DNA of 15,622 nt from NCBI GenBank assembly GCA_029946045.1, contig JAQSDS010000409.1, positions 1 to 15,622 of the forward strand. The letters run 5' to 3'. A model generated the notes under the pieces. The model did not search any database. It saw nothing but the letters and a program-made list of their open reading frames with translations, and was not told the origin of the DNA. The translations under genes and the position numbers were made by a program. Positions 762-15,622 of the stretch are shown one piece after another. This DNA is from Rhodoferax sp. GTDB lineage: Bacteria > Pseudomonadota > Gammaproteobacteria > Burkholderiales > Burkholderiaceae_C. Every line of letters starts with the position of its first letter. Position 1 is the first letter of the stretch.

Positions 762-771
762 ATCGGTGCCT

Positions 772-2124
772 CTAGAGCGGCGCGGCTCGCAGCTCGACGT
801 AGGCCCTGCCGCGTAGTTCCTGGGCCCAGGTTTGCGCGGTTTCATCGCGCTTTTTCTCGCGCAACAGGGCGCGCACCGACTCGCGTTGCTCGGCTTCGCT
901 GAGCTTGGCCTGACGCCGCTCCAGCAGTTGGATCAGATGAAGTCCAAAGCGCGACAGCAGCGGCTCGCTGACTTGGCCCGGGGCCAACTGGTTCATCACG
1001 CTTTCAAATTCAGGCACAAACATGCCCGGGTTGGCCCAGCCCAGGTCGCCCCCTTGGGCTGCGCTGCCGTCCTGGGAATGCTCGCGCGCCAGCGCGGCAA
1101 AGTCAGCTTGCCCGGCCTGTACCCGCTTCTTGAAATCGAGCAAGCGCTCGCGTGCCCGCGCTTCATTGAGATCGGCCGAAGGCCGCAACAAGATATGTCG
1201 GGCACGGCTTTGTGTCACCGATATGGCAGGCAAACCTGCGTTGACCTTCTCGACGACTTTCAAGATATGAAAACCAGCCAGTGAGCGGACCAGGGCGGAC
1301 ACTTCGCCTGGCACCAACGCTTGTGTGGCTTCAACAAATGAAGCCGGGTAGCGGCCGACGCTGCGCAAACCAAGCTGACCACCATTGGACTGTGCCGACG
1401 GGTCGGAGTAGGTGCGGACCAGCGTGCCGAAGTCCTCGCCCGCGCGTGCCCGCTCCAGCACTTTGCCCGCTTGCACTTGCAAGGCTTGTACCTGTTCGGC
1501 GCTGGCTCCCTCGGGGACCGCAATCAGGACTTGCGCGAGATTGATTTCCAACTGGCTTGGGTCCTGGTTGTTTTGCTGGGCCTGCAAATAGGTATCGATG
1601 TCGGACTCCGACACCTTTACCCGCGGCTCCAGATCGCGCTCACGCAGGCGTTGCAGCAAAGCTTGGTCACGCAGCTGCGCCCGGAACTGAGCCACGCTCA
1701 TGCCATCGGCGACGACTCGCTGGCGCAACTCGGCGACGGTCAACTGGTTTTGGGCCGCGATTGATTGCTCGGTCTGGTCGATGGCCGCGTCTTCAACCTT
1801 GATGCCCGTGTCGCGCGCGAACTGAAGCAGAACTTTCTGGTCAATCAAGCGTTCCAGCATTTCTGCGTTCAGGCGCTGAGGATCGGGTGCCGGCCGCCGC
1901 TGCGCAGCAAACTGTTGCTGTACTCGCAGAACTTCACGTTGCACCTCGGTATTGGTCAGCGGCTCGGAATTGACGACCGCCACAATAAAGTCAGCAGTGG
2001 CGGCGCTGCCGGCCGGCACTGACGTAGCCGTCGTGGGCGCCAGACGCAAACCTTGGGCATGCGCCTGCGCCCCGAACAAACAGGCGGTCAAGGCAACAGA
2101 TAAAAATTTAAAGCGAACGGTCAT
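772..2124 (-). CDS. surA: periplasmic chaperone / peptidyl-prolyl isomerase SurA
   Basis: Escorts unfolded outer-membrane proteins, including LptD, across the periplasm to the BAM complex. The 450-residue product has a signal peptide with predicted cleavage at AHA|QG (after residue 23). An N-terminal SurA chaperone domain (about 45-165) follows, then two parvulin domains at about 194-293 and 305-403, each with the typical GG(Q/D)LG core (GGQLGL at 248-253, GGDLGW at 358-363). A C-terminal helix (about 408-440) completes the chaperone core. Length and domain order match the family. The ATG lies 6 bases after the lptD stop codon and has no convincing Shine-Dalgarno sequence, which suggests translational coupling to lptD. 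rsmA follows after 10 bases. An lptD-surA-rsmA operon is the conserved arrangement. Confidence 0.97.
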
Positions 2125-2130
2125 GATGGT

Positions 2131-4494
2131 TCAATCGTAATTGCTGAAACGGCTGGGCGGTTCACCGGGTTCACGCAGGATCTGGTAGCCGGGGATATTG
2201 TCCTTGAGCGACTTGAGTGGATTCACGCCGAGCCGGGTGAATCCGACGAATTCCAATTGGAACATGATGCGCTGGGTGGCGGTACTGGTACTGGTTTGCA
2301 GGCGCTCCAGCACAATGCGGCCCAGCCAGCAACTTGCATCGTATTCAAAGCCTACCAGCGAGTTGACCAACTTGCGCTCATTGATGCTGTAGTTCAGGCG
2401 CCCCACGCTGTACCAGCGTCCCTCGCCCTGGCCCTGTCCAGCACCCATGTTCTGACCTTTGTCGCCCCACAGGTCGTTGATGGGCCACTGCCAGCCAAAA
2501 TCAGCTTGCTCGCTCGATTCGCGCTGGTAGCGGTAGGCTGCCGAGACCGTGCGGAAGGGACCGGGCTTGTAGCTGGCGCTCAGGGTGGAACGCACCGAGC
2601 GTTTGGCTTTGGGGTTGAACTGAACCGTGCCGTCAAAGCTCCAGCGTGGGTCCCAGTGGACCGAGCCCCCCAGCAGCAAGTCGCTGAGGCTGTCGTCTGC
2701 GGGCAGCTCGCCGGGCAAGGTGACATTTTGATCGGAGAAGCGCAGGCGCTGGGCCATGCCCAGGCGGGCAGCTTCAGCCCCGGTAGCCGGGTCTAGCCAG
2801 CGCGTGGTGACCCCGAAGGTCAGCAAATTGCTGTCAGAGATGCGGTCATTGCCGACATAGGCATTTTCTGTGTAGATGGTGGCCAGGTTAAAGTCGTTGG
2901 CGCCAGAATCGTAATTAGGCAAATAGCTTTGATCACGGTAGGGCGTTTTGACATAAAACGCCCGTGGCTCCAAGGTCTGGCGCAAGTTGCGGCCAAACAA
3001 TTGGGTGTCGCGCTCAAACACCAGGCCACTGTCGAGGCTGAAGGTCGGCAACACCCGACTGGCCGATGTGTCGCCATTTGTCAGGGGTGTTTCGAACTGG
3101 TACTGGCTGGCGTGCAATTGCACTCGGGGCGTTAAATAGCCAGCTGGGGCGGTCATGGGGTAACTGGCCTGCAACAAGCCAAAGCTGCGCTGGCCGTTGG
3201 CTTGTCCGGTGCGTGTCATGTCGGATCGAAAACGGGTGTAGTCGGCATTGAAGGCGTAATTAAAACCGGCGACATTGGTTCGTGCATAACTGGTGGTGAG
3301 CTGCGGCAACCGGTCGTAGGGCGGCACGATGGGTGCCGTGACATCTTGCAGGGTTTGCCACTTCAGCGTACGCACATTGTTGGCCCAGGCGCCTGTGCTC
3401 CAGGACAAGGTGGCATCATTGGCCAGCAGGCGTTGCGTCAGGGAATTGTTGGCGAGGTTGAAATCACGCCAATAGTTGTCATCGCTGACCCGGTTCAGGC
3501 TCAGGTTCAGGGCGGCACCGCTATTGGTCCAGGCACTGTCAAAACGGGCCTGGTGATTCAGGTTCAGGCCCCAGCGGTTGGCATCACGCAATTGATCGGA
3601 AGGCATCCAGTCAAGCTGCACTTCGCCCTTGTATTTTTGCTCCAGATAACGGAATTCGGTGCCGAGATTGACACCGCGCTTGCTCATCAAGGTCGGGGTG
3701 ATGGTGGCGTCGCGGTTGGGCGCCATGTTCCAGTAATAGGGCACCGACACTTCAGACCCATTGACGGTGTCCAGACCGATCGTCGGCGGCAGGATGCCCG
3801 ACTTGCGCTGGTCGCCCAGTGGAAAGCTGATGTAAGGCACAGGCAGCAGCGGCACGCCCTTGAAACTGAGCAGGGCGCCGGTGGCGGTGCCTACTTCTTC
3901 CTTGTTGTCCAGGGAAATGGTGCTTGCTTTCAAAATCCAGTCCGGCATCCAGCTCGGACCTGGCAAGCGGCGACAGGTGGTGAAGGTGGCGTTGTGAATC
4001 ACCGCCCGCTGCTGGTCCAGAAAATCCACCCGGTCGGCCTGGCCATGGGCCTGATTGCGCAGAAAGTGGTAACTGGGTTCGTTGAAAAACCCCTCGAAGG
4101 TCTCCACCCGCAACTCCAGCAAAGGGCCTTCGTAAACGTTGCCTGCGCGGTTGATTCGCACATGGCCCCGGGCCTTGGCCACATCGGTGGGTTGGTTGTA
4201 TTCCAGCTGGTCGGCCTGGATCACCATGTCGCCACGACGCAGCATGGCCTTGCCCTCGACCACCGTTTCAAGGTCCTGGCGGCCGGTGATGCGCTGGCCC
4301 GAGACGAAGCTGGGTAAACTGCCCCGCACCTCTGGCGCTAGGGTCTCTTGCAGCGTGGGGCTGGTTTGCAGAAGCAAAGGCGCATCGGCGGCCTGCTGCG
4401 CACTCACCATAGCCGATGGCAGCAGCGTGGCCAGCACACTCAGGCGCAGCGGTCGCGCGCGACCCAGCAGCTGAAACACAGGCGTGTCGCGCAT
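2131..4494 (-). CDS. lptD: LPS-assembly outer-membrane protein LptD
   Basis: The beta-barrel of the LptDE translocon, which inserts lipopolysaccharide into the outer leaflet of the outer membrane. From the ATG at 4494 it is 787 residues. A signal peptide (about 1-32, ending VSA|QQ) is followed by the periplasmic OstA/LptA-like beta-jellyroll (about 70-180) and the LptD barrel up to the C-terminus. The mature protein has only two cysteines, C174 (in TTCRRLPGPSW) and C722 (in YDASCWLGR). They align with E. coli C173 and the C724/C725 pair, so one interdomain disulfide is expected. The frame stays open up to an ATG at 4605 (824 residues), but that extension (proline/histidine-rich) is not signal-like, would overlap the divergent kinase gene, and lies upstream of a plausible promoter. 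An ATG at 4506 is another possibility. None of these starts has a clear ribosome-binding site. Identity is certain; the start is not. Confidence 0.93.
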   Translation of the reverse strand: MRDTPVFQLLGRARPLRLSVLATLLPSAMVSAQQAADAPLLLQTSPTLQETLAPEVRGSLPSFVSGQRITGRQDLETVVEGKAMLRRGDMVIQADQLEYNQPTDVAKARGHVRINRAGNVYEGPLLELRVETFEGFFNEPSYHFLRNQAHGQADRVDFLDQQRAVIHNATFTTCRRLPGPSWMPDWILKASTISLDNKEEVGTATGALLSFKGVPLLPVPYISFPLGDQRKSGILPPTIGLDTVNGSEVSVPYYWNMAPNRDATITPTLMSKRGVNLGTEFRYLEQKYKGEVQLDWMPSDQLRDANRWGLNLNHQARFDSAWTNSGAALNLSLNRVSDDNYWRDFNLANNSLTQRLLANDATLSWSTGAWANNVRTLKWQTLQDVTAPIVPPYDRLPQLTTSYARTNVAGFNYAFNADYTRFRSDMTRTGQANGQRSFGLLQASYPMTAPAGYLTPRVQLHASQYQFETPLTNGDTSASRVLPTFSLDSGLVFERDTQLFGRNLRQTLEPRAFYVKTPYRDQSYLPNYDSGANDFNLATIYTENAYVGNDRISDSNLLTFGVTTRWLDPATGAEAARLGMAQRLRFSDQNVTLPGELPADDSLSDLLLGGSVHWDPRWSFDGTVQFNPKAKRSVRSTLSASYKPGPFRTVSAAYRYQRESSEQADFGWQWPINDLWGDKGQNMGAGQGQGEGRWYSVGRLNYSINERKLVNSLVGFEYDASCWLGRIVLERLQTSTSTATQRIMFQLEFVGFTRLGVNPLKSLKDNIPGYQILREPGEPPSRFSNYD

Positions 4495-4573
4495 CAGGCA
4501 ACGCATTCGGAAAACGCGCAGGGGTCGAAAACGGTGACGGGCATGAGGTGGGCGCGGTGGAGGGCTGAACACA

Positions 4574-4601
4574 TTTGTAGAATGGATTATCCATGAGTCA
4601 A
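4574..4601 (-). promoter_or_regulatory. candidate lptD promoter in the lptD/amgK divergent region
   Basis: On the minus strand TTGACT (4596-4601) is followed after 16 bases by TACAAA (4574-4579), a fair sigma-70 type pair. Transcription would start near 4567, inside the longest lptD reading frame, which favours the lptD starts at 4494/4506. On the plus strand a TAGAAT (4578-4583) overlaps this -10 and points at amgK, whose message would then be almost leaderless. Both are read by eye only. Confidence 0.3.
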
Positions 4602-5759
4602 GCACTTCCCCCCCAAGCCCCCATAGCGCCAGCCATCGCCTGGAGCGATCTCGTCCGCGCTGATCAATTCAGCCACTGGCTGGCTGCCACCGCTGCCCAA
4701 CACGGCTTGCAGCCCGCGAGCCTGCGCCTGGCCTCGGCCGATGCCAGTTTCCGGCGCTATTTCCGCATCGACGCGCAGGACGGCAGCCGCATCATCATGG
4801 ACGCCCCGCCCGACAAGGAAAACAGTGCGCCCTTTGTCAAGGTGGCCACCCTGATGCACGCCGCTGGCGTCCCGGCACCCAAGGTGCTGGCCTGGGACGA
4901 GCCGCTGGGCTTCATGCTGCTGACCGACCTGGGCGCGCAAACCATGATGCAAGTCATCAACCGGCACGATGCGCAAGCCAACCTGCCCCTGTATCTGCAG
5001 GCGGTGGACGCGCTCATTGCCTGGCAACTGAGCTCCCAACCCGATGTGCTGCCGCCCTACGACGAAGCGCTGCTGCGCCGCGAGCTGGCGCTGTTCCCCG
5101 ACTGGTACATCGCCCAACACAAGGGCATCGTGCTGGACGATGCCATGCGCCAGACCCTCGACAAGAGTTTCGAGGCGATCATCCGCCACAACCTGAGCGC
5201 ACCCAGCGTCTTTGTGCACCGCGACTTCATGCCCCGTAATCTGATGGCCCCCACGCTTGCCACTGCGTGTGCTGCGCTGCCCCCCGAGGGGGCTGATTTG
5301 CCTTGGGGCGGCCCGGCGGCGAATCGTCTCATGGTGTCCGGGCCCGGCACCCTGGGCGTGCTCGACTTCCAGGATGCGGTGTACGGCCCCATCACTTACG
5401 ACATTGCCAGCTTGATGCGCGACGCCTTCCTGAGCTGGGACGAAGACTTTTGCCTGGATGTGACCATCCGCTACTGGGAAAAAGCGCGCAAGGCCGGGCT
5501 GCCGGTGGGCGACGACTTTGGCGAGTTTTACCGCGGCGTGGAGTGGATGGGCCTGCAGCGGCACCTGAAAGTGGCCGGCATCTTTGCCCGCCTGACGCTG
5601 CGCGACGGCAAGCCCCAGTACCTGGCCGACACGCCGCGATTTATTCATTACATCCGTGCCACCTGTGCCCGTTACCGCGAACTCAAACCGCTGCTGCGAC
5701 TGGTGGAGAAAATCGAAGGCATCGAGGAGCCCGCCGTTTTCGGTTTTGGGCGGCAGTAA
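4593..5759 (+). CDS. amgK: AmgK-like cell-wall amino-sugar kinase (aminoglycoside phosphotransferase fold) with internal repeat-derived insertion
   Basis: A kinase of the aminoglycoside/choline phosphotransferase fold. AmgK phosphorylates the anomeric hydroxyl of N-acetylmuramate and N-acetylglucosamine for peptidoglycan recycling, and its gene typically sits beside lptD as here. The 388-residue product shows the N-terminal SADASFRRYFR nucleotide-binding segment (48-58), the catalytic loop HRDFMPRN (209-216) and the metal-binding DFQDA (258-262) followed by YDIASLMRD. In relatives those two motifs are separated by a short loop. Here residues about 219-247 are extra and repeat-like (see the repeat entry), yet the frame stays open and every motif is intact. 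murU, the usual partner, is not adjacent; instead a decayed restriction island follows 62 bases later. The ATG used is the first in frame, with no clear ribosome-binding site. Kinase fold is certain; the AmgK assignment rests on similarity and position. Confidence 0.85.
   Translation: MSQALPPQAPIAPAIAWSDLVRADQFSHWLAATAAQHGLQPASLRLASADASFRRYFRIDAQDGSRIIMDAPPDKENSAPFVKVATLMHAAGVPAPKVLAWDEPLGFMLLTDLGAQTMMQVINRHDAQANLPLYLQAVDALIAWQLSSQPDVLPPYDEALLRRELALFPDWYIAQHKGIVLDDAMRQTLDKSFEAIIRHNLSAPSVFVHRDFMPRNLMAPTLATACAALPPEGADLPWGGPAANRLMVSGPGTLGVLDFQDAVYGPITYDIASLMRDAFLSWDEDFCLDVTIRYWEKARKAGLPVGDDFGEFYRGVEWMGLQRHLKVAGIFARLTLRDGKPQYLADTPRFIHYIRATCARYRELKPLLRLVEKIEGIEEPAVFGFGRQ
5247..5333. repeat. in-frame GC-rich palindromic repeat element inside amgK
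   Basis: An 87-base stretch (29 codons, residues 219-247) appears inserted between the two catalytic motifs of the kinase. Its core is the inverted repeat CCCCC-CGA-GGGGG (about 5280-5292). It also holds a weaker outer pairing between the CCCCACG near 5249 and the CCTTGGGGCGG at 5301-5311. It translates to an Ala/Pro/Gly-rich segment (AALPPEGADLPWGGPAA). The coding text on both sides is similar: AATCTGATG ends at 5246 and AATCGTCTCATG ends at 5333 (NLM versus NRLM), as if the target had been duplicated. From memory, near-identical palindromic units are scattered between genes in Comamonadaceae genomes; no second copy occurs in this window. Confidence 0.6.
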
Positions 5760-5775
5760 AAAACCGTTGCCACCG

Positions 5776-5821
5776 CCCTGTCTTTACCGCGTAAACAGCT
5801 TTCAAAATCAAAAGGACAGGG
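5776..5821 (+). promoter_or_regulatory. nested inverted repeats in the leader of the hsdR remnant
   Basis: CCCTGTC (5776-5782) is exactly complementary to GACAGGG (5815-5821), which ends at the base before the hsdR start codon and overlaps its Shine-Dalgarno AAGGA (5812-5816). Between them TTTAC-CGC-GTAAA (5783-5795) forms a smaller hairpin that can extend to a CAG pairing with the first arm, so two alternative folds are possible. It could be a leader structure masking the ribosome-binding site, an operator, or chance. No uridine run follows, so it is not a standard terminator for amgK. Confidence 0.3.
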
Positions 5822-6058
5822 ATGACGCCAGAGCAACAGGCCAGACAAAGCATTGACACGCTGTTGCAGCAAGCGGGCTGGCATGTGTGCGACATGCTTC
5901 ACGCCAACATCCACGCCGCCCGAGGTGTGGCCATCCGCGAGTTCTCGCTCAACCCCGGTCATGGCTTTGCCGACTACCTGCTTTACATCGACGGCAAGGC
6001 CGCCGGCGTGATCGAGGCCAAAAAAGAAGGTGCCACGCTCACGGGTGTGGAAGGGTAA
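5822..6058 (+). pseudogene. hsdR: type I restriction endonuclease subunit R, N-terminal fragment
   Basis: A 78-residue stub of the HsdR restriction/translocase subunit, normally around 800-1100 residues. It retains the start of the nuclease domain: the IREFSLNPGHGFADYLLYID segment with D51, and the ExK motif E65-A66-K67 (VIEAKKEG), the metal-binding core of the PD-(D/E)xK fold. It ends at TLTGVEG, where the intact protein would continue into the rest of the nuclease domain and the helicase motors, none of which is present. A good Shine-Dalgarno (AAGGA, 5812-5816) lies 5 bases before the ATG, so a short peptide could still be made. The reading frame continues past two stop codons (6056-6058 and 6068-6070) into the Fic remnant, marking a deletion joint. 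Restriction activity is not expected. Confidence 0.85.
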
Positions 6059-6070
6059 TCCCCCCGTTAA

Positions 6071-6841
6071 ACCCTGCCGCTGTCAAACCGACTGCTTCGC
6101 AAAACGCATGAAATTCTGATGCGTGGTGTGCGTGGTGAGAACAAGCAGCCCGGAGAGTTCCGCATCAGCCAAAACTGGATTGGTGGCTCCAGCTTGATGG
6201 ACGCGGTTTTTATTCCACTCCACCCGGAAGGTGTGCCAGCCCTGATGAGCGATCTGGAGAAGTTCTGGCATGACGAGAGCATCACCGTGCCACACCTGAT
6301 TCGGCTGGCCATCAGCCATTACCAGTTTGAGACGATCCACCCATTTTTGGATGGCAATGGGCGCATCGGGCGACTGTTGGTGCCACTTTATTTGGTGAGT
6401 AATGGGTTGCTGGCGAAGCCATCTCTGTACCTGTCAGACTTTTTTGAGCGCAACCGGGCCAGCTACTAAGACGCCCTGATGCGGGTGCGCGTGTCCAACG
6501 ACATGATTCACTGGGTGCGTTTTTTTCTTCAAGGCGTGGCAGAAACAGCGATCAAAGGGCGCAATGTGTTCAAGGAAATTTTGGCCTTGAGGACGGATGC
6601 TGAACACAAGCTGCTGTCACTAGGCAAACGCGCGCCCAACGCAAAGCAAGCGCTCAATTTGCTTTACAGACGCCCCATGTTGAGCGCCACAGACCTGGAA
6701 AACAGCCTGGGCGTCAGCCACCCCACTGCCAACGCCCTGTTGCGAGACTTCATCCGGTTGGGTCTTTTGAGGGAGGTGACGGGCGCTGCCCGACACCGCC
6801 TGTATGTGTTTGAAACTTACCTAGAGCTATTTACAAGGTAA
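6071..6841 (+). pseudogene. Fic family AMP-transferase, N-terminally truncated and interrupted by a nonsense codon
   Basis: Remnant of a Fic protein, a family that transfers AMP from ATP to target proteins. Homology begins abruptly at codon 6071 ([17 protein letters not shown]), immediately after the hsdR scar, so the N-terminal region that usually carries the inhibitory helix is lost. The catalytic motif [12 protein letters not shown] is intact (about 6337-6372). At 6467-6469 TAA replaces the tyrosine expected in the ERNRASY-Y-DALMRVR segment; the same frame then runs on to 6841. The second part ends in a winged-helix domain (SATDLENSLGVSHPTANALLRDFIRLGLL), typical of the long Fic-HTH proteins found in type I restriction loci. 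Pieces with their own ATG are 6119-6469 and 6479-6841; neither has a good ribosome-binding site. Probably nonfunctional, unless the stop is a sequencing error or is read through. Confidence 0.85.
6467..6469 (+). other. in-frame nonsense codon splitting the Fic remnant
   Basis: TAA where the conserved sequence predicts tyrosine (TAC or TAT to TAA is one base change). Both sides are in the same frame with no other disruption between 6071 and 6841. Confidence 0.75.
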
Positions 6842-6861
6842 GGGAAATGCATTTCCCTTAC
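6838..6861. promoter_or_regulatory. 24-base perfect palindrome at the end of the Fic remnant
   Basis: GTAAGGGAAATG is followed directly by its exact reverse complement. The Fic stop codon TAA (6839-6841) lies inside the left arm. As RNA it could form a 10-pair stem with a TGCA loop, but an A-rich run rather than a T run follows on the plus strand. An operator for a dimeric regulator is therefore more likely than a terminator. A related near-palindrome, TACCCTAAGGTA, lies at 6870-6881, 26 bases away centre to centre. Confidence 0.55.
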
Positions 6862-6987
6862 ATTAAAAATACCCTAAGGTAAAGATGAAGCCGACCCGAT
6901 GGAGTGGTCCACGCCTTGCACACGCGCTTCGGCGAACGCTTTACCAAGCTGGACAAAACGGTGGTGCACCTCCGATCCCACTAATTT

Positions 6988-7001
6988 CAATATGCATATT
7001 G
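6988..7001. promoter_or_regulatory. operator-like perfect palindrome, copy 1
   Basis: CAATATGCATATTG reads the same on both strands. It lies 78 bases before the preferred start of the winged-helix gene and 65 bases from a second copy. Inferred binding site for the winged-helix protein itself. Confidence 0.5.
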
Positions 7002-7023
7002 CATATATTTGTCTGCGACAACC

Positions 7024-7052
7024 TTGAATAGCAACGCAATTTATGGCATATT
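7024..7052 (+). promoter_or_regulatory. candidate promoter of the three-gene operon
   Basis: TTGAAT (7024-7029) and CATATT (7047-7052) with a 17-base spacer make a moderate sigma-70 type promoter lying between the two palindromes. Transcription would begin near 7060, inside the second palindrome, giving a leader of about 20 bases before the ATG at 7079. Such flanking is typical of self-repressed promoters. Confidence 0.35.
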
Positions 7053-7066
7053 CCATATGCATATTG
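7053..7066. promoter_or_regulatory. operator-like palindrome, copy 2
   Basis: CCATATGCATATTG differs from the first copy (6988-7001) by one base. It overlaps the predicted transcription start and lies just before the ATG at 7079. Its position favours that start over the in-frame ATG at 7043, which would put the operator inside the coding region. Confidence 0.5.
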
Positions 7067-7078
7067 AATACAAACACA

Positions 7079-7633
7079 ATGAGTTCATCCGGTATTAAAT
7101 CCCGCCTCGGCCATGCCCAATGGTCGCTCAAGCCACAAGACTTGGCTATGGCGTTCAAGCTGGTGTGTCTGGCGGGGCAAAAACTGCCCTACGCGACCTT
7201 GGCACAAGTCATGCACATGTCGCAGTTTGAGGCCCATGCCTGCATGGCGCGCCTCGCTGGCGCACGTCTCTTGGCCGAGGTGAATGATGCGCCTGCGTTG
7301 GTTATGGCTGCATTCCGGCCCATGGTGTTGTATGGTGCTGCTTATTTTTTTCCGGCAGTGCGCGGCGAAATCACCATGGGTTTCCCTACGGCCTATGGTG
7401 TTGAACCACTCAAATCCAAAGTGCTGTTTGCTGACGAGATGCCGCCCGTGTGGCCGCATGCAGATGGGCCGGTGCGAGGTAGCGCATTGTTGCCGCTTTA
7501 CCCCAAGCTGCCTTTGGCTGCGATGCAGGACCAGGCGTTGTACGAACTGCTGTCCCTGTTTGACGCGCTGCGTATAGGCCAGGCCCGTGAGCGTGAAATT
7601 GCCCGCAAGTTTCTGGAAGAAAGCTTGAACTAA
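7079..7633 (+). CDS. uncharacterised winged-helix-like protein, putative antitoxin/repressor partner of the downstream nucleotidyltransferase
   Basis: A 184-residue protein with a likely winged-helix fold at the N-terminus (about 17-66): WSLKPQDLAMAFKLV leads into the helix-turn-helix LAQVMHMSQFEAHACMARLAGARLL. A conserved-looking C-terminal part follows, with AAYFFPAVRGE, PPVWPHADGPVRGSALLPLY and YELLSLFDALRIGQARERE. I recognise this pattern from uncharacterised bacterial proteins encoded next to nucleotidyltransferases, but know of no assigned function. It is cytoplasmic, with no membrane segment. The stop codon overlaps the next start (TAATG, 7631-7635), so the two genes are translationally coupled, as in AbiEi/AbiEii-type toxin-antitoxin pairs. 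An ATG at 7043 would add 12 residues; 7079 is preferred because the operator and promoter lie between the two. No clear Shine-Dalgarno is visible. The antitoxin/repressor role is inference. Confidence 0.8.
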   Translation: MSSSGIKSRLGHAQWSLKPQDLAMAFKLVCLAGQKLPYATLAQVMHMSQFEAHACMARLAGARLLAEVNDAPALVMAAFRPMVLYGAAYFFPAVRGEITMGFPTAYGVEPLKSKVLFADEMPPVWPHADGPVRGSALLPLYPKLPLAAMQDQALYELLSLFDALRIGQAREREIARKFLEESLN

Positions 7634-8355
7634 TGGCAGCATTCAACAATCCCAATCTGGCGATTCTGGAGTTGGTGGCGCAGGCCCTTGGTCCCGTGTG
7701 TGAGAGCGTGATTTTTGTAGGCGGCTGCGCCACTGGCTTGCTGCTGACACAAGAGCGGCCTGACCGCATCCGAATGACCGAGGACGTCGACATCGTGGCC
7801 CACGCGTTGACAGTGCATGACTACCATGCGATCGAAAGCGCCGTGCGAGCACGAGGCTTCAGCAACGATATGCGACCCGATGCACCCATTTGCCGCTGGG
7901 TTTATAAAAGTGTCACCCTCGATTTGATGCCGACCGTGAAAGACATTTTGGGTTTCGCCAACCGTTGGTATCCACTTGCATTGCAGACAGCCGAGCTTGT
8001 GACTTTGCCCAGCGGCACGACGATCAAGCTCATTACTGCCCCGGTGTTCATTGGTACCAAGCTGGAAGCCTTTAAAGACCGAGGCAAAGATGCCAGCGGC
8101 AAGCCAGACTTTTTGGGTAGCCACGACCTTGAAGACATCATCACCGTGGCAGACCGAAGGCCTGAGTTGCTGGCGGAGTGCAAGGCCGCAGCATCCGAGT
8201 TGCGCGCTTATCTGGCCGCAGAATTCCAGGCCCTTTTTGCCAACCCGGAATTTGAACAAGCCTTGTCAGGCCATTTGCCAGGCGACGCGTTCAGTCAGCA
8301 GCGCACCAAACCCCTGGCCAAAACCTTACGCGAACTATCCAAGCTTTCAACATGA
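7633..8355 (+). CDS. DNA polymerase beta-like nucleotidyltransferase (AbiEii/AbiGii-like toxin candidate)
   Basis: A 240-residue protein with the hallmarks of a minimal nucleotidyltransferase: a glycine pair in IFVGGCATGL (27-36), the metal-binding pair D51-x-D53 in MTEDVDIVA, and a likely third carboxylate D97 in VTLDLMP. The helical second half contains KLEAFKDRG (143-151) and SHDLEDIITVADRRPEL (163-179), as in AbiEii-like proteins. AbiEii toxins modify RNA or protein targets using NTPs and are held in check by a winged-helix partner encoded just upstream; the arrangement here is the same. Translation is coupled on both sides: its ATG overlaps the upstream TAA by one base, and its own TGA overlaps the hsdM start (ATGA, 8352-8355). 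The fold is clear; toxicity and substrate are inference. Confidence 0.85.
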   Translation: MAAFNNPNLAILELVAQALGPVCESVIFVGGCATGLLLTQERPDRIRMTEDVDIVAHALTVHDYHAIESAVRARGFSNDMRPDAPICRWVYKSVTLDLMPTVKDILGFANRWYPLALQTAELVTLPSGTTIKLITAPVFIGTKLEAFKDRGKDASGKPDFLGSHDLEDIITVADRRPELLAECKAAASELRAYLAAEFQALFANPEFEQALSGHLPGDAFSQQRTKPLAKTLRELSKLST

Positions 8356-9845
8356 ACTCAGCCACCATCGTCCAGAAACTCTGGAACTACTGCAACGTGC
8401 TGCGCGACGACGGCATGAGTTACGGCGACTATGTCGAGCAGCTCACTTACCTGCTGTTCCTCAAGATGGCCGATGAGCGCAGCCAGCCGCCGTGGAATCA
8501 GCCCAGCCCTATTACCAAAGGCTTCGACTGGCCGTCGCTGCTGGCCAGGGATGGCGATGCGCTGTTTGACCACTATCGTCACTTGTTGGACGAGTTGGGC
8601 AAAGAGAAGGGCACAATTGGCCTGATTTTCGGCAAGGCGCAAAACAAGTTCCAGGACCCGGCCAAGCTGCGCCGTCTGGTGGTGGATCTGATCGACGGCG
8701 AGAACTGGTCGGCCATGGGTGCCGACGTGAAAGGTGACGCCTACGAGGGTCTGCTGGAAAAAAATGCGCAAGACACCAAGAGCGGCGCCGGCCAGTACTT
8801 CACGCCGCGCCCGCTGATTCAGGCCATGGTGGACTGCATTGCGCCCAAGCCGGGCGAGACCGTGTGCGACCCGGCCTGTGGCACCGGCGGCTTTTTGTTT
8901 GCCGCGCACAACCATGTGGCCGAGCACAACCCCAACCTGACGCGCGAGCAAAAAAAGCACCTGAAAGAAAACGCCTTGCGCGGCTGGGAACTGGTGCAAA
9001 GCACGGCGCGCCTGGCCGCCATGAACATGATGCTGCATGGCATTGGCTCCGACAAATCGGTGCCCATTGTGGTGGCCGACGCGCTGGCTGCCGACCCTGG
9101 CGAACGATTTGACGTGGTGCTGGCGAATCCGCCGTTTGGCAAGAAGAGCAGCACCATGATCACCGGGGCCGAGGGCCGGGTGAGTACCGAAAAAGACGGG
9201 ATCGAGCGCGACGACTTCTGGGCCACCACCAGCAACAAGCAGCTCAACTTTGTCCAGCACATCAAGACCCTGCTCAGGCAACACGGGCGCGCCGCCGTGG
9301 TGCTGCCCGACAACGTGCTGTTCGAGGGTGGCGCGGGCGAGACCATCCGCAAAAAGCTGCTGCACGAGTGCGATGTGCACACGCTCCTGCGTTTGCCCAC
9401 CGGCCTGTTTTACGCCCAGGGCGTGAAGGCCAACGTGATTTTCTTTGAGCGCAAGCCCGCCTCAGAGACACCCTGGACCAAAAAGCTGTGGATTTACGAC
9501 CTGCGCACCAACCAGCATTTCACCCTCAAGACCAACCCGCTCAGGCGCGAGCATCTTGATGAATTTGTCCAGCTCTACCACCCGGCCAACCGGCATGACC
9601 GCAAGGCGAACTGGTCAACCGAGACACCCGATGGCCGCTGGCGGGCGTATGACTATGCCGATCTGATAGCGCGTGACAAAGCCAGCCTGGACATTTTCTG
9701 GCTCAAGGACGACGCCCTGGCCGACAGCGACAACTTGCCACCGCCCGACGTGATTGCGCAAGAAATTGTGGATGACCTGGAAGCGGCGCTGGAGCAGTTC
9801 AAACTGATCGCAGGCGATTTGGCGGGCAGCGCAGAGACGGTTTAG
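8352..9845 (+). CDS. hsdM: type I restriction-modification DNA methyltransferase subunit HsdM
   Basis: The N6-adenine methyltransferase subunit of a type I system, which normally acts as M2S with HsdS supplying sequence recognition. The 497-residue product is full length. It has an N-terminal HsdM helical bundle (about 5-130, YGDYVEQLTYLLFLKMADE), the QYFTPRPLIQAMVDCI segment (148-163), SAM-binding motif I DPACGTGGFL (173-182) and catalytic motif IV NPPF (259-262). The remainder is the usual C-terminal region (VVLPDNVLFEGGAGETIRKKLL, then the LPTGLFYAQGVKANVIFF stretch). Its start overlaps the nucleotidyltransferase stop (ATGA), so it belongs to that operon. No hsdS follows: 34 bases after the stop comes the converging end of the ybdD-type gene. 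Without a specificity subunit elsewhere in the genome it may be inactive, yet the frame shows no decay, unlike hsdR and fic upstream. Confidence 0.96.
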   Translation: MNSATIVQKLWNYCNVLRDDGMSYGDYVEQLTYLLFLKMADERSQPPWNQPSPITKGFDWPSLLARDGDALFDHYRHLLDELGKEKGTIGLIFGKAQNKFQDPAKLRRLVVDLIDGENWSAMGADVKGDAYEGLLEKNAQDTKSGAGQYFTPRPLIQAMVDCIAPKPGETVCDPACGTGGFLFAAHNHVAEHNPNLTREQKKHLKENALRGWELVQSTARLAAMNMMLHGIGSDKSVPIVVADALAADPGERFDVVLANPPFGKKSSTMITGAEGRVSTEKDGIERDDFWATTSNKQLNFVQHIKTLLRQHGRAAVVLPDNVLFEGGAGETIRKKLLHECDVHTLLRLPTGLFYAQGVKANVIFFERKPASETPWTKKLWIYDLRTNQHFTLKTNPLRREHLDEFVQLYHPANRHDRKANWSTETPDGRWRAYDYADLIARDKASLDIFWLKDDALADSDNLPPPDVIAQEIVDDLEAALEQFKLIAGDLAGSAETV

Positions 9846-9872
9846 TCCCTGCGCTACGACTTGAAAATACCA

Positions 9873-9891
9873 GGCTGCCTCAGCAGCAGCC
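9873..9891 (-). terminator. weak hairpin at the end of the cstA-ybdD operon
   Basis: GGCTGC and GCAGCC form a 6-pair stem with a 7-base loop that contains the stop codon of the minus-strand gene. On that strand TGGTATTTTC follows, a short T-rich run a few bases from the stem. It could serve as a weak terminator for both converging operons, or be chance. Confidence 0.3.
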
Positions 9892-10089
9892 ACCCGAGCG
9901 GCCCGAGCCGTAGCGGGCTTCCTGGCGGTTCCTGAAAAACTCCAGCTCGGTCATGATGGGCTCGCCCGGATGGGTGATCCGCCGGTGTCTGACGTAGGTG
10001 GCGTAATCGGGTACGCCCACCATTTGCCGGGCGGCCTGCCCCAGGTACTTGCCTACCGTGGACAGGTCGTTGAAGAACAGGCTAGCCAT
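9880..10089 (-). CDS. YbdD/YjiX-family small protein associated with CstA transporters (DUF466)
   Basis: A 69-residue cytoplasmic protein with the family pattern GVPDYATYVRHRRITHPGEP, then MTELEFFRNRQEARYG, ending in a Gly/Ser-rich tail closed by two cysteines. Members are almost always encoded directly after cstA/btsT and are thought to assist the transporter; the precise role is unknown. The ATG lies inside the end of cstA, with an 8-base overlap (10082-10089), so translation is coupled. Some family members carry selenocysteine at the C-terminus. Here the residues are Cys-Cys followed by TGA, which I read as the true stop because read-through would give a long, unrelated tail. Confidence 0.88.
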   Translation of the reverse strand: MASLFFNDLSTVGKYLGQAARQMVGVPDYATYVRHRRITHPGEPIMTELEFFRNRQEARYGSGRSGGCC

Positions 10090-12142
10090 TGACCGGGATG
10101 GCCTGGTACGGTGTCTCGCAACTGGTTTGCTTACCGGTGCGCGAGGCCTTTACGCAGGCGATGACGGTGTAGTACAGCATGCTGACCACCACAAACATGA
10201 AAAACAGCGCCAGCGCAGCATCGAGCTGGTTGTTGTACACGATCTGTTGCATCTGGGCCAGGCTCTTGGCCGGTGCCAGCACCGTGCCCTGGTCGATGGC
10301 GGCCTGGAACTTGTTGGCCAGCGCGAGAAAGCCGATCTTGGGATTGGCATCAAATACTTTTTGCCAACCTGCCACCAGCGTGCAGATCAGCAGCCAGGAG
10401 GCCGGCAGAATCGTCACCCAGGCATATTTCTGGCGCTTCATCTTGAACAGCACCACCGTGCACAGCATCAGTGCGACACCGGCCAGCATCTGGTTGGAAA
10501 TGCCAAATAGCGGCCACAGGCTGTTGATGCCGCCCAGCGGATCAACCACGCCCTGGTACAAGATGTAACCCCAGGCGGCCACACACAGGGCAGTGGCAGT
10601 CAGGCTGGCAATCCAGGAATCGGTCCGCTTGAGGGACGGGATGAAGCTGCCCAGCAAGTCCTGCAGCATGAAGCGGCCGGCACGGGTGCCGGCATCGCAG
10701 GCGGTCAGGATGAATAAGGCCTCGAACAGGATGGCAAAGTGGTACCAGAAGGCCATCATGGCCTGGCCACCCATGATCTGCGAAAAGATCTGGGCCATGC
10801 CCACCGCCAGCGTCGGTGCACCGCCTGCGCGTGACAGGATGGTGTTCTCCCCGACGTCCTTGGCGGTCTGCAGCAGCACATCGGGTGTGATGAGGAAACC
10901 CCATTGCGAAATGATCTGGGCGGCGCTGTCGACATTGGTGCCGATGACGGCGGCGGGGCTGTTCATGGCGAAATACACACCTGGATCGATCACCGAGGCG
11001 GTCACCATGGCCATGATGGCCACGAACGACTCCATCAGCATGCCGCCGTAGCCGATCATGCGGGCGTTACCTTCGCTGTCGAGCAGCTTGGGCGTGGTGC
11101 CCGACGAAATCAGGGCGTGGAAACCGGACACGGCACCGCAGGCAATGGTGATGAAGATGAACGGGAACAGGCTGCCTGACCAGGCTGGGCCGGTGCCATC
11201 GATGAACTGGGTCACGGCGGGCATGCGCAGGTTGGGCGCCACAAACACCATGGCCAATGCCAGCCCGACAATGGTGCCGATCTTCAGGAAGGTGGACAAG
11301 TAGTCACGCGGCGCCAGCAACAGCCAGACCGGCAGCACCGAGGCGATGAAGCCATAGATGATCAGCATCCAGGTCAGTTGTTTGGCATCAAAGGTGAACA
11401 TCGGGCCCAGCACCGCGCTTTCGGCCACCTGGCCACCTGCCACGATCGAGGCAATCAGCAACACCAGGCCAATGACAGAAACTTCACCGATGCGCCCGGG
11501 GCGCAGATAGCGGCTGTAAACCCCCATGAACAAGGCAATCACGATGGTGGCAGCCACGGTAAAGGTGCCCCACGGGCTGGCAGCCAGCGCCTTGACCACG
11601 ATCAAGGCCAGCACGGCCAGAATGATCACCATGATGACAAACGTGCCGATCAGGGCAATCATGCCGGGCACCAGGCCCAACTCGGATTTGACCAGGTCGC
11701 CCAGTGAGCGCCCGTCGCGCCGGGTCGAGACAAACAGCACCATGAAGTCCTGCACCGCACCGGCCAGCACCACGCCGACGATGATCCACAGCGTGCCGGG
11801 CAGGTAACCCATTTGTGCCGCCAGCACCGGGCCCACCAGTGGGCCGGCGCCTGCAATGGCCGCAAAGTGGTGGCCAAACAGGACATATTTGTTGGTCGGA
11901 ACAAAATCCAGACCGTCGTTGTGGCGCACTGCGGGGGTGGCGCGGGTGGGGTCGATCTGCATGACCTTGTCGGCGATGTACAGGCTGTAGTAACGGTAGG
12001 CGACCAGGTAAATGGATATTGCTGCTGTGATGATCCACAACGAATTGATGGTCTCACCCCGCGACAGCGCCACGGTGCCCAGGGAAAATACCCCGATCAC
12101 CGTTAAAAGCGCCCAGAGGGCGTGCTTGGAAACAAGATGCAT
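10082..12142 (-). CDS. cstA: CstA/BtsT family carbon-starvation (pyruvate/peptide) transporter
   Basis: A large inner-membrane transporter of 686 residues; E. coli CstA and BtsT are 701 and 716. E. coli BtsT is a proton-coupled pyruvate importer, and CstA imports pyruvate and is linked to peptide use. Signature stretch: DFVPTNKYVLFGHHFAAIAGAGP (79-101), followed by LVGPVLAAQMGYLPG. Many hydrophobic segments run along the whole length (more than a dozen by eye), with ISSGTTPKLLDSEGNARMIGYGGMLMES in the middle. The start is supported by AGGAG five bases upstream of the ATG. The gene overlaps the ybdD-type gene and lies downstream of btsS-btsR on the same strand, separated from btsR by 203 bases that contain three BtsR-like repeats. 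This suggests induction by extracellular pyruvate through BtsSR. Whether it is functionally nearer to BtsT or CstA cannot be settled from sequence alone. Confidence 0.95.
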   Translation of the reverse strand: MHLVSKHALWALLTVIGVFSLGTVALSRGETINSLWIITAAISIYLVAYRYYSLYIADKVMQIDPTRATPAVRHNDGLDFVPTNKYVLFGHHFAAIAGAGPLVGPVLAAQMGYLPGTLWIIVGVVLAGAVQDFMVLFVSTRRDGRSLGDLVKSELGLVPGMIALIGTFVIMVIILAVLALIVVKALAASPWGTFTVAATIVIALFMGVYSRYLRPGRIGEVSVIGLVLLIASIVAGGQVAESAVLGPMFTFDAKQLTWMLIIYGFIASVLPVWLLLAPRDYLSTFLKIGTIVGLALAMVFVAPNLRMPAVTQFIDGTGPAWSGSLFPFIFITIACGAVSGFHALISSGTTPKLLDSEGNARMIGYGGMLMESFVAIMAMVTASVIDPGVYFAMNSPAAVIGTNVDSAAQIISQWGFLITPDVLLQTAKDVGENTILSRAGGAPTLAVGMAQIFSQIMGGQAMMAFWYHFAILFEALFILTACDAGTRAGRFMLQDLLGSFIPSLKRTDSWIASLTATALCVAAWGYILYQGVVDPLGGINSLWPLFGISNQMLAGVALMLCTVVLFKMKRQKYAWVTILPASWLLICTLVAGWQKVFDANPKIGFLALANKFQAAIDQGTVLAPAKSLAQMQQIVYNNQLDAALALFFMFVVVSMLYYTVIACVKASRTGKQTSCETPYQAIPVNG

Positions 12143-12245
12143 GTCTTCTCCTGGTGTTGGTTGATGTCCTGAACATGTCAGAACTTGCTGACCAGGGTGG
12201 CGCCATGTCGTGCAAGGCGTCAGCTTTCCTAGTCAGTGGGCCGGA

Positions 12246-12251
12246 AATGTA
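12246..12251 (-). promoter_or_regulatory. candidate -10 element of cstA
   Basis: TACATT on the minus strand would place transcription start near 12239. That puts the nearest BtsR-like repeat at about -46 to -53, a usual position for activation. No good -35 is visible, as expected for an activator-dependent promoter. Confidence 0.25.
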
Positions 12252-12284
12252 GCGGCATCGGCGGCGCTTTTGTGCGCTATCTGG

Positions 12285-12333
12285 CGAGTGGTTTCCAGCA
12301 GGATTAAGTGGTGCGTGCGCGCTGCCCAGCGGT
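12285..12333 (-). promoter_or_regulatory. three direct repeats matching the BtsR binding site
   Basis: On the minus strand, in order: ACCGCTGG (12326-12333), ACCACTTA (12305-12312) and ACCACTCG (12285-12292), separated by 13 and 12 bases. The E. coli BtsR (YehT) site in front of btsT is described as two direct repeats ACC(G/A)CT(C/T)A with a 13-base spacer. The spacing of 20-21 bases between starts equals two helical turns, as expected for LytTR dimers. The array lies about 143 bases before the cstA start and within 50 bases after btsR. Confidence 0.7.
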
Positions 12334-12345
12334 GCGCAAAAAACC

Positions 12346-13062
12346 TCAGCCGATGAGCAACTGGTCTTTCAGTTCGCGCAGGTAACGCCGGCTCACGGGC
12401 AGGCGCCGGGCACTGCGCGTGATGATTTCTGCGCTCCCGTTGTCCATCAATTCAATCTCGGCAACGTGGTTGAGGTTGACCAGATATTGCCGGTGGCAGC
12501 GCAGCAGTGGGGTGCGTTCCTGCAATATTTTGAGGGTCAGTTCGGTGATGCCCTGACGCTTGTCGGCCACCACATGCACGCCACTGAGGTCGGTGTGAAC
12601 AAATTCAACCTCATCGAGCGCCAACAAAAAGATGCGGTTCAGTGCCATGCAGGGAATATGCCGCAGCGCCGGAATCAAGGGCGCATGTGCCGGTTGCGAT
12701 GGCCGGGCGCCTGCACGCAGCCAATCCAGGGTTTTGGCAAGTCGTTGCGGGTCGATCGGTTTGAGCAGGTAGTCGGCGGCATGCTCTTCAAAAGCCTTCA
12801 GCGCGTGTTCATCAAATGCAGTCACAAACACGATGTGCGGCAAGGCGGCGGCCTCGATCATGCCCACCATTTCCAAGCCGCTCACGCGCGGCATCTGGAT
12901 GTCCAGAAACACCACGTCGGGGCGCAAACGGTGAATGGCCGCAATACCTTCCAGCGCGTTGCTGCACTCGCCCAGCACGTCGATGTCGGCATGGGCCGCC
13001 AGCAGCGCCTTCAGTTCGTCGCGCGAGGGCGCTTCATCGTCAATGATCAAGGCGCTTAGCAT
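12346..13062 (-). CDS. btsR: LytTR-family response regulator BtsR
   Basis: DNA-binding response regulator of 238 residues. The receiver domain (about 1-120) has the acidic pocket D8/D9/E10, phosphoacceptor D54 (VVFLDIQMP), T81 and K101 (LLKPID). The C-terminal LytTR domain (about 133-236) includes RCHRQYLVNLNHVAEIEL and ARRLPVSRRYLRELKDQL, very close to E. coli YehT/BtsR. On phosphorylation by BtsS it should bind paired ACC-type repeats; three such repeats lie just downstream, in front of cstA. The ATG lies inside the last codons of btsS, with a 7-base overlap (ATGCTAA), so kinase and regulator are translationally coupled. A run of six T follows the stop, after a short 4-pair hairpin, a weak terminator at most. 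Confidence 0.95.
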   Translation of the reverse strand: MLSALIIDDEAPSRDELKALLAAHADIDVLGECSNALEGIAAIHRLRPDVVFLDIQMPRVSGLEMVGMIEAAALPHIVFVTAFDEHALKAFEEHAADYLLKPIDPQRLAKTLDWLRAGARPSQPAHAPLIPALRHIPCMALNRIFLLALDEVEFVHTDLSGVHVVADKRQGITELTLKILQERTPLLRCHRQYLVNLNHVAEIELMDNGSAEIITRSARRLPVSRRYLRELKDQLLIG

Positions 13063-14762
13063 GCGGCACGCTCGTCTTCAATCGGCAAGCGGATGGCCAC
13101 GCGGGTCCAGCCATCGGGTTGGCAGGTGACATCAATGCCAAAGCCCGGGCCGAAACGCAGCTTGATGCGCCGGTCCACCAGGCCCATGCCCAGACCATCG
13201 CTGTCGGGCTTGGCCTGATACAAGCCGGCACTGTCTTCGACCACCACAGTCAATACCGCCCCAGCACGCCGGGCACTGATGACAATGGTGCCGGGCTCCA
13301 GCAACTGCGAGATGCCGTGCTTGATCGCGTTTTCAACAATCGGCTGCAGCGAAAAGGCTGGTAGCTGTAGCCCCAGCAGGTCCTCGGGCACATCAAAGCG
13401 CACGTTGAGCCGGTCGGAAAACCGGGCCAACTCGATGCGCAGGTAAGCATCCACATGTTCGATTTCATCCTTGAGCGTGGCATCGTTACCGGTGCGTTTG
13501 AGACTCTTGCGAAAAAATGTGGACAGATATTGCACCAGTTGCCGCGCCGACTCCGGGTCACGCCGGATCACGGCGGCCAGGGTATTGAGCGCATTGAACA
13601 GAAAGTGCGGATTGATTTGGGCCTGTAGCAGCTTGATCTCGGCCTGCGCGAGCAACTGCTTTTGCTCCTCGATGCGGCCGGACAGCAACTGGTTGGAGAG
13701 CAACCGGGCAATGCCTTCGCCCAGCGTGCGGTTCAGCGATGAGAAAAATTTGGTTTTGGGCTCGTACAACTTGATGGTGCCAATCACCCGGTTCTCACTA
13801 CCCCGCAGCGGAATCACCAGGCATGACCCGAGCTTGCAGTCCCTGGTCACCGAGCAGCAGTAGGGAACGGCCGCGCCATCGGCATAAACCACTTCGTTGT
13901 TGCGGATGGCCTGCAAGGTGTGCGCCGAAGAGATCGGCATGCCGGTCAGGTGGTGGTCTGCGCCCACGCCGACAAAACCCAACACCTTCTCGGTATTGGT
14001 GATGGCCACGGCGCCCACCCCGGTTTCTTCGCGAATGATGCCGGCCATACGCGCGCAGTTGTGTTCGTTGAAGCCCTGCACCAGCACGCCGACGGAGCGC
14101 TCGGCAATGCGCAGCGCTTTGGCAGAAAAGGCAATCGAGTACTTTTCCAGGGTTTCCTTGCGATCCAGAATCAGACGCATGAACAGGGCCGCGCCAAATG
14201 AATTGGTGAGCACCATGGGCAAGGTAATTTGGGCCACCAGATGGGCCGCTTGTTCGGCCGGTTTGGCGAGCAGCAAAATGATGCTCATCTGGCACAGCTC
14301 GGCCACCAGCGTGGTGCCAAAGGCAATTGCCGGATTGAGCAACAGGTGGGCCTTGTTACGGCGCAACAAATAGAAATGCAGGAAGCCGCCAATGAGTCCT
14401 TCGGTCACGGTGGATACGGCACAGGCCGTTGCTGAAAAGCCCCCCAGCGAGTAGCGATGCAGGCCACCGGTCAGACCTACGGCCAGGCCCACCAACGGGC
14501 CGCCCAACATGCCGCCCAGCACGGCACCAATGGCCCGGGTGTTGGCAATGGCGTCGTCAACCTGGAACCCGAGGTAGGTCCCCATGATGCAGAAGCCAGA
14601 AAAAACCACGTAGCACACCAGCCGGTCGGGCAAGCGCACGGTGACCTGCATCAAGGGCGAGAACAGGGGCGTCTTGCTGAGCAGGTAGGCTATCACCAGA
14701 TAGACGCACATTTGCTGCAGCAGGTCGCCAACGAGCGCGATGTGGTTGATCTCGGCCAGCAT
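13056..14762 (-). CDS. btsS: LytS-type sensor histidine kinase BtsS (pyruvate sensor)
   Basis: Inner-membrane kinase of 568 residues; E. coli BtsS has 561. The N-terminal 5TM-LytS domain (about 1-205) keeps the residues shown in E. coli to be needed for pyruvate sensing (R72, R99, C110, S113), here R76 (ANTRAIGA), R103 (LHRY), C114 and S117. A GAF domain follows (about 225-365; GVGAVAITNTEKVLGFVGVG). Then comes the His-kinase domain with H386 in NPHFLFN and the N-box ENAIKHG (477-483), and a glycine-rich GLGMGLVD (523-530) for ATP. The ATG at 14762 fits the E. coli N-terminus (LLQQMCVYLVIAYLLSKTPLF). The frame stays open to an ATG at 15278, but that extension runs through rsmE and is rejected. 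btsR overlaps its 3' end. Pyruvate as the signal is inferred from the conserved residues and the neighbouring cstA. Confidence 0.96.
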   Translation of the reverse strand: MLAEINHIALVGDLLQQMCVYLVIAYLLSKTPLFSPLMQVTVRLPDRLVCYVVFSGFCIMGTYLGFQVDDAIANTRAIGAVLGGMLGGPLVGLAVGLTGGLHRYSLGGFSATACAVSTVTEGLIGGFLHFYLLRRNKAHLLLNPAIAFGTTLVAELCQMSIILLLAKPAEQAAHLVAQITLPMVLTNSFGAALFMRLILDRKETLEKYSIAFSAKALRIAERSVGVLVQGFNEHNCARMAGIIREETGVGAVAITNTEKVLGFVGVGADHHLTGMPISSAHTLQAIRNNEVVYADGAAVPYCCSVTRDCKLGSCLVIPLRGSENRVIGTIKLYEPKTKFFSSLNRTLGEGIARLLSNQLLSGRIEEQKQLLAQAEIKLLQAQINPHFLFNALNTLAAVIRRDPESARQLVQYLSTFFRKSLKRTGNDATLKDEIEHVDAYLRIELARFSDRLNVRFDVPEDLLGLQLPAFSLQPIVENAIKHGISQLLEPGTIVISARRAGAVLTVVVEDSAGLYQAKPDSDGLGMGLVDRRIKLRFGPGFGIDVTCQPDGWTRVAIRLPIEDERAAC

Positions 14763-14813
14763 GGGGTCTTGGGTCTGGATAGTGTGAGTGAAGACGCTAT
14801 TATCCAGCTCCTC
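14763..14813. promoter_or_regulatory. divergent btsS/rsmE promoter region
   Basis: Only 51 bases separate the two start codons. TATTAT (14798-14803) faces rsmE and could be a -10 giving an almost leaderless message; its complement ATAATA faces btsS. Neither gene has a clear Shine-Dalgarno sequence here. Promoters must overlap each other or extend into the opposite gene. Confidence 0.3.
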
Positions 14814-15566: not shown

Positions 15567-15588
15567 TTTTCAGTTTTTGGAGCGCAGC

Positions 15589-15622
15589 ATGAACTTTGGC
15601 CTTGTTGCCCATCGCCTACACC
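15589..15622 (+). CDS. start of an unidentified gene (runs off window)
   Basis: ATG at 15589 preceded by TGGAG (15578-15582) at good spacing, 23 bases after rsmE stops. Only 11 codons (MNFGLVAHRLH) are visible, too few to identify. Probably cotranscribed with rsmE. Confidence 0.45.
   Translation, partial: MNFGLVAHRLH

Follow-up and report, generated by a model that had tools for sequence, protein, structure and literature searches.

The stretch analysed here (15,622 nucleotides of Rhodoferax sp., GCA_029946045.1, contig JAQSDS010000409.1, positions 1-15,622, forward strand; hereafter the window) carries three intact genes, termed A, B and hsdM, beside broken copies of hsdR and fic. Probably, A and B form a self-contained module of the PDC-M21 type, for toxin-antitoxin action or abortive infection, which is cargo of a type I restriction-modification operon of the order hsdR-hsdS-[cargo]-hsdM. 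We regard hsdM as the old last gene of this operon and not as a recruited part of the toxin, because hsdS never adjoins hsdM in related loci and the cargo between them varies. Gene A (7079-7633, + strand) encodes a PDC-M21A-like winged-helix protein of 184 amino acids, a probable autorepressor and antitoxin, gene B (7633-8355, + strand) a PDC-M21B-like nucleotidyltransferase of 240 amino acids, the probable toxin, and hsdM (8352-9845, + strand) an intact type I modification subunit of 497 amino acids without adjoining hsdS or hsdR. An in-frame ATG at 7043 would give A a length of 196 amino acids; homologues of 184 amino acids start at the methionine of position 7079. Overlaps of TAATG (7631-7635) between A and B and of ATGA (8352-8355) between B and hsdM were confirmed, and with them the coordinates and the coupling of the three genes given in a preliminary description of this DNA.

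Comparison with PADLOC models assigned A to PDC-M21A (3.4e-31, residues 41-183 of 184) and B to PDC-M21B (1.9e-61, across residues 1-235). The AlphaFold2 model of A (predicted local distance difference test score of 90.6) revealed winged-helix matches across residues ~15-92, which support a winged helix at the N-terminus. In B, the nucleotidyltransferase motifs I-IV of the AbiEii type were identified, with histidine as the basic residue of motif IV, and its predicted fold is MenT-like, the closest solved structures being MenT1 and MenT3/TglT at 17-23% identity. The likeness to a type IV toxin-antitoxin pair noted earlier is supported. In total, 2468 homologues of B were found at E <= 0.001, with 114 plasmid records. 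A phage-borne pair was considered and rejected, since there was no match among annotated phages, and none of the 109 viral contig stretches fitting a search pattern encoded a relative. On two Pseudomonas plasmids (L008, L011), a third gene overlaps the end of the pair by 1 base; it encodes a protein of about 228 amino acids, annotated on one of the plasmids as a PP2C-family phosphatase.

Two 20-base near-copies were detected upstream of A, a distal candidate operator at 6986-7005 (TTCAATATGCATATTGCATA; repeat D1 and inverted repeat I1) and a proximal one at 7051-7070, ending 8 bases before the start codon. Relatives also displayed palindromes upstream of A, which belong to several sequence types. 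A pattern-free palindrome score of at least 9 was reached by 28 of 99 distinct A upstream regions vs 2 of 495 shuffles, and this is a fairer test than the count of four palindrome patterns (74 of 107 A upstream regions vs 12 shuffled), as these were picked after viewing the sequences. The palindromes fit an autoregulating DNA-binding protein, which would bind them. A sigma-70 scan of positions 6700-9950 revealed no promoter-like site on the + strand and one on the - strand (1.0 expected by chance), so that no promoter is demonstrated in front of A.

The assignment of the pair as cargo is carried by 28 loci (27 distinct) with hsdS and this hsdM on one strand. Not in a single one were the two genes adjacent; the interval between them had a median of 2716 nucleotides and harbored a same-strand open reading frame (ORF) of at least 90 amino acids in 26 of the 28 loci, and hsdR lay on the same strand in 27. 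Genes were called by a crude ORF picker, and families were labelled by means of profiles for which the window and a few loci served as seeds. While the order hsdR-hsdS-[cargo]-hsdM is shared, the cargo differs from genome to genome. We scanned 40 cargo proteins picked by hand, for the most part the closest neighbours of hsdM; 30 of them matched a Pfam family at E <= 0.01, in some cases under the curated cut-off, and 10 matched none. Thus, we identified PIN (L230, L231, L232, L242, L174; weak in L153), PIN7 (L230), RES (L151), Polbeta (L156), AlbA_2 or HATPase_c_4 (L156, L171, L177, L195), AAA_14/DUF4143 (L157, L173), AAA_21 (L237), AAA_13 (L158), DUF87 (L166), PLDc (L169), Mrr_cat (L164), YhcG (L152), SMODS (L032), AbiEi_2 with AbiEii and a DEAD helicase (L155), a reverse transcriptase (L018), and Fic proteins (L157, L161, L165). 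The A-B pair itself lies between hsdS and hsdM in fuller operons (L018, L024, L032, L077, L162, L163), and a genome of the same genus (G354, L235) retains the gene order hsdR-fic-A-B-hsdM, the last of these genes being broken. Since Fic and other unrelated cargo occupy the slot in relatives, the Fic remnant of the window, a further remnant and A-B are cargo of this kind. The AbiEi_2-AbiEii pair of L155 is a true one in the same slot, its AbiEii gene overlapping hsdM by 4 bases, and a PIN7-type protein starting near VDYENV recurs near hsdM or A-B (L018, L021, L230, L232, L243).

The chances stand about even that the pair is ordinary cargo that spreads horizontally, in a slot that is a mere recombination hotspot without functional tie to restriction-modification. 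Cargo turns over at nearly every tree tip, and the slot between hsdS and hsdR has been termed a potential recombination hotspot in part of a published account (PMC12255303). In L152, L157 and L161, moreover, fragments of the hsdM 5' end precede both the cargo and a full hsdM. Such fragments would be left by successive insertion or recombination events that stacked cargo at the hsdM start. A neutral hotspot by itself, however, would not predict the strong bias of the identified cargo towards defence and toxin-antitoxin families.

The frequency of the pair beside hsdM was determined in several overlapping sets (L032 is G189, L025 is G314). For the order, 300 genomes were sampled from a larger group; B was found in 27 of them, this HsdM (E <= 1e-80) in 39 and both in eight (G000, G002, G132, G145, G171, G189, G190, G236). 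In six of these eight, including the source genome of the window, the genes are side by side, which rules out chance linkage; the hsdM of G002 is a 5'-truncated remnant, and B of G145 was matched in two pieces. Five of the other 26 B-bearing genomes of this sample (G002, G132, G145, G189, G190) carry hsdM after B, as do four of six within the genus (G300, G314 as a remnant, G327 at a contig end, and G354). Among the best 80 of at least 568 relatives, a set that leans to close kin, B is directly followed on the same strand by hsdM or by a remnant of either hsdM end in 12 loci (L016, L018, L021, L022, L024, L025, L032, L036, L050, L064, L077, L080; a weak internal match in L031 was left out), while control stretches upstream revealed an hsdM match in one of 109 loci (L057, in a different arrangement). 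The pair is therefore recurrently, and not almost never, found beside hsdM. A type I gene was located within 6.5 kb of B in just 19 of the 80 loci, so that most copies are not seen with type I genes; another placement, hsdS-A-B-hsdR, was found in L006 and similarly in L037 and L053.

The preliminary description had suggested that the pair may have adopted HsdM as a third component, for example as a methylation-licensed toxin, with coupled translation setting the ratio. That the modification subunit or its mark licenses or restrains the toxin is now very unlikely. An ATGA overlap of B and hsdM was found not only in the window but also in L022, L024, L036, L064, L077, L080, L104 and L108 (by the position of hsdM codon 1), such overlaps are commoner for B than for other cargo, the adjacency recurs across scattered branches, and the hsdM of the window is intact while hsdR and fic are broken. 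However, in 68 of the 80 relatives neither hsdM nor a clear remnant of it follows B, and many unrelated cargos precede hsdM as well, forming the ATGA overlap at 7 of 29 intact starts (L152, L155, L156, L176, L177, L231, L242). B itself also meets hsdR at -4 (L006, L038) and other genes (L015, L028, L055, L074, L090), and A-B stays open where hsdM decays (L016, L022, L025, L036, L050, L064, L080). Four of these loci (L022, L050, L064, L080) keep just the first ~25-34 hsdM codons directly after B, which suggests that the pair outlives hsdM there.

Both trees point in the same direction, and together with the neighbour counts led us to downgrade HsdM as an adopted subunit. In the B tree, hsdM adjacency marks 19 of 102 rows and requires 17 changes (shuffled mean 17.8; 12 forced by starred branches). 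In the HsdM tree, the pair is present in 10 of 46 rows, which requires 10 changes (shuffled mean 9.3; 7 forced); row L240 is unlabelled here, but its genome also holds A-B at a different contig edge (L239), followed by the first 54 residues of hsdM. G300 harbors an HsdM 94% identical to that of the window and a B of 43% identity. These scattered positions and the mismatch in G300 suggest that the pair has repeatedly been gained and lost next to an hsdM already in place.

The pair has been embedded in type I loci repeatedly, also between hsdS and hsdR in L006, L037 and L053. It might act as an addiction or guard module that, on the model of PrrC in EcoprrI, stabilizes the restriction operon or causes cell death upon its inhibition or loss. 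The PrrC precedent and the reported stabilization of plasmids by AbiE lend this some weight, and a guard against locus loss, also put forward earlier, is possible and close to addiction as contained in the cargo reading. Nevertheless, we consider the guard function doubtful, as most copies of the pair stand alone and the slot is occupied by differing cargos. In the window, hsdR and hsdS were lost while A-B is intact, so the pair did not prevent the loss of those genes.

Regarding selection, pairwise ratios of non-synonymous to synonymous substitution rates (dN/dS) were 0.056-0.096 for A, 0.038-0.139 for B and 0.072-0.151 for hsdM (one hsdM pair was not computable); these ratios of about 0.04-0.15 are rough, many dS values being near or above 1, and indicate purifying selection on all three genes. 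Changes private to the window were predominantly synonymous (synonymous:non-synonymous 26:2 in A, 29:4 in B and 16:3 in hsdM), and the three genes were apparently under constraint until recently. Selection on this unit alone, as suggested before, is not borne out, for the private hsdM changes of five relatives (16-23 synonymous, 1-2 non-synonymous) resemble those of the window. The HsdM of the window revealed the Pfam domains N6_Mtase and HsdM_N and matched MTase_I of PADLOC (6.5e-199), in agreement with its first description as a type I modification subunit. A complete type I set is absent from the window, which contains the intact hsdM, a 5' fragment of hsdR and no hsdS. Elsewhere in the assembly (G000, 86.7% complete), no close HsdS was found; Methylase_S matches were confined to contig C31, the other type I locus of this genome with hsdM and hsdS, whose HsdM is 29% identical to that of the window. 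Without hsdS, the HsdM of the window is probably inert.

Several observations weigh against reading A-B as PDC-M21 cargo in front of an old hsdM. First, hsdM is intact, and its synonymous-biased private changes (16:3) are unlike long neglect. Second, B overlaps hsdM at -4 in 9 of 16 distinct loci (10 with L018 by gene coordinates) vs the 7 of 29 for other cargo, and the junction may be more than ordinary packing. Of 80 A-B junctions, 11 showed overlaps of other lengths, and some junctions showed none. B reached 14.3 bits against Pfam AbiEii, below the cut-off of 22.5. For A, neither Pfam nor NCBIfam gave a match at E <= 0.1, including the AbiEi-family antitoxins, and no solved structure matched it at E <= 0.001; the structure comparison bears mainly on its N-terminus, its C-terminal half being barely covered.

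Taken as cargo, A-B is probably one of many interchangeable defence modules between hsdS and hsdM. A would bind the palindromes before its own start, repress the operon and neutralize B, and B would act as a nucleotidyltransferase toxin that halts growth upon loss or inactivation of A. By analogy to MenT and AbiEii, its most likely target would be tRNA or some other component of translation, to which it would add nucleotides. Phages are the presumed trigger of the pair. In this genome, a deletion has apparently fused the hsdR start to the middle of fic and hsdS is gone, so that A, B and hsdM are left as the 3' end of the operon. In the best reading of the data, A-B outlives the decaying restriction operon, as an autoregulated toxin-antitoxin or abortive-infection cargo might. 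The operator-like region of the pair and its overlap with hsdM also raise the thought, which we rate as improbable, that hsdM is transcribed from the antitoxin-controlled promoter. Release of the toxin and a rise of the methylase would then coincide whenever the antitoxin is lost or titrated, in a modification-first safety circuit. If so, any toxin-antitoxin module before hsdM would serve, which may explain the frequent toxin-antitoxin-like genes immediately before hsdM in this operon family.

Upstream of A, about the first 77 codons of hsdR persist at 5822-6052 (+ strand; HsdR N-termini of related loci match by tblastn with up to 82% identity), while a search against the own genome aligned this piece at 5822-6073 (74%). 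After a short stretch follows a SoFic-like fic remnant (6071-6841, + strand), which lacks its N-terminal part, is 77.6% identical to residues 127-381 of the Fic protein of L161 and therefore begins at about residue 127; it is split into two open frames (6119-6469 and 6479-6841), each with Fic/SoFic family matches. A perfect 24-base palindrome (6838-6861) overlaps the stop codon of the second frame. A short remnant at 6894-6968 (+ strand) matched DNA upstream of hsdM in G312, G304 and G302 of the same genus (76-81%), its counterpart in G302 lying within an ORF of 218 amino acids without Pfam match. The hsdR start (5822-6071) comes after an APH-family gene, a junction common to G302. Among 40 relatives searched, G302 matched positions 5600-6069 at 84% and thus has the hsdR start at the same place, and several others matched only the first ~100-160 bases of this query, the end of the preceding gene; the junction therefore resembles the insertion site of an island. 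Elsewhere, the window is chromosomal, with LptD-like and APH-family genes upstream and other ORFs downstream.

Within the literature searched, the exact composition of pair and hsdM was not met in any characterised system, as the preliminary description had supposed; the pair is, however, catalogued by PADLOC, and embedding in type I loci is already published. The closest likeness is to the candidate defence pair PDC-M21, whose M21A and M21B models are matched in the same order, B following A via TAATG. A literature search by name found no paper naming PDC-M21, and the likeness is one of models. PADLOC candidates of this kind were, as far as described in the cited part of PMC12988326, found by guilt-by-embedding, an origin that presumably extends to M21. 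With AbiE, the pair shares a regulator gene in first and a nucleotidyltransferase gene in second place, motifs I-IV and palindromes in front (cf. excerpts of PMC3985639), but B scores too low for Pfam AbiEii and A did not match AbiEi, and for these two reasons we rejected filing it as AbiE. MenT1 and MenT3/TglT of MenAT are the nearest folds to B, at low identity.

Regarding position, Campylobacter jejuni hsd loci carry rlo ORFs between hsdR and hsdS and mlo ORFs between hsdS and hsdM (in the cited portion of PMC5183652), thus likewise extra ORFs within an hsd locus, but in other bacteria. DarTG2 lies between hsdS and hsdR of an E. coli type I locus in the RptR island (PMC12255303), and TgvAB lies in a type I locus of Vibrio VPI-2 and was likened to RloF between hsdR and hsdS (PMC11411939); as portrayed in the cited parts, both are toxin-antitoxin or defence pairs inside type I operons whose families and positions differ from A-B. 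The toxin gene prrC is embedded in the EcoprrI type I operon (PMC3874165), but according to the section consulted the restriction complex holds PrrC, an anticodon nuclease, and no such contact is known for A or B. A widespread uncharacterised pair thus gains a concrete anatomy of a winged-helix autorepressor candidate, a MenT-like toxin candidate and operator-like palindromes. The hsdS-hsdM interval of this type I family emerges as a high-turnover slot for many defence modules, offering a ready candidate list and a natural experiment on why defence genes nest within each other. Given the limited literature search, the cargo-bearing operon family and the operator anatomy may be new detail next to the embedded defence genes already described.
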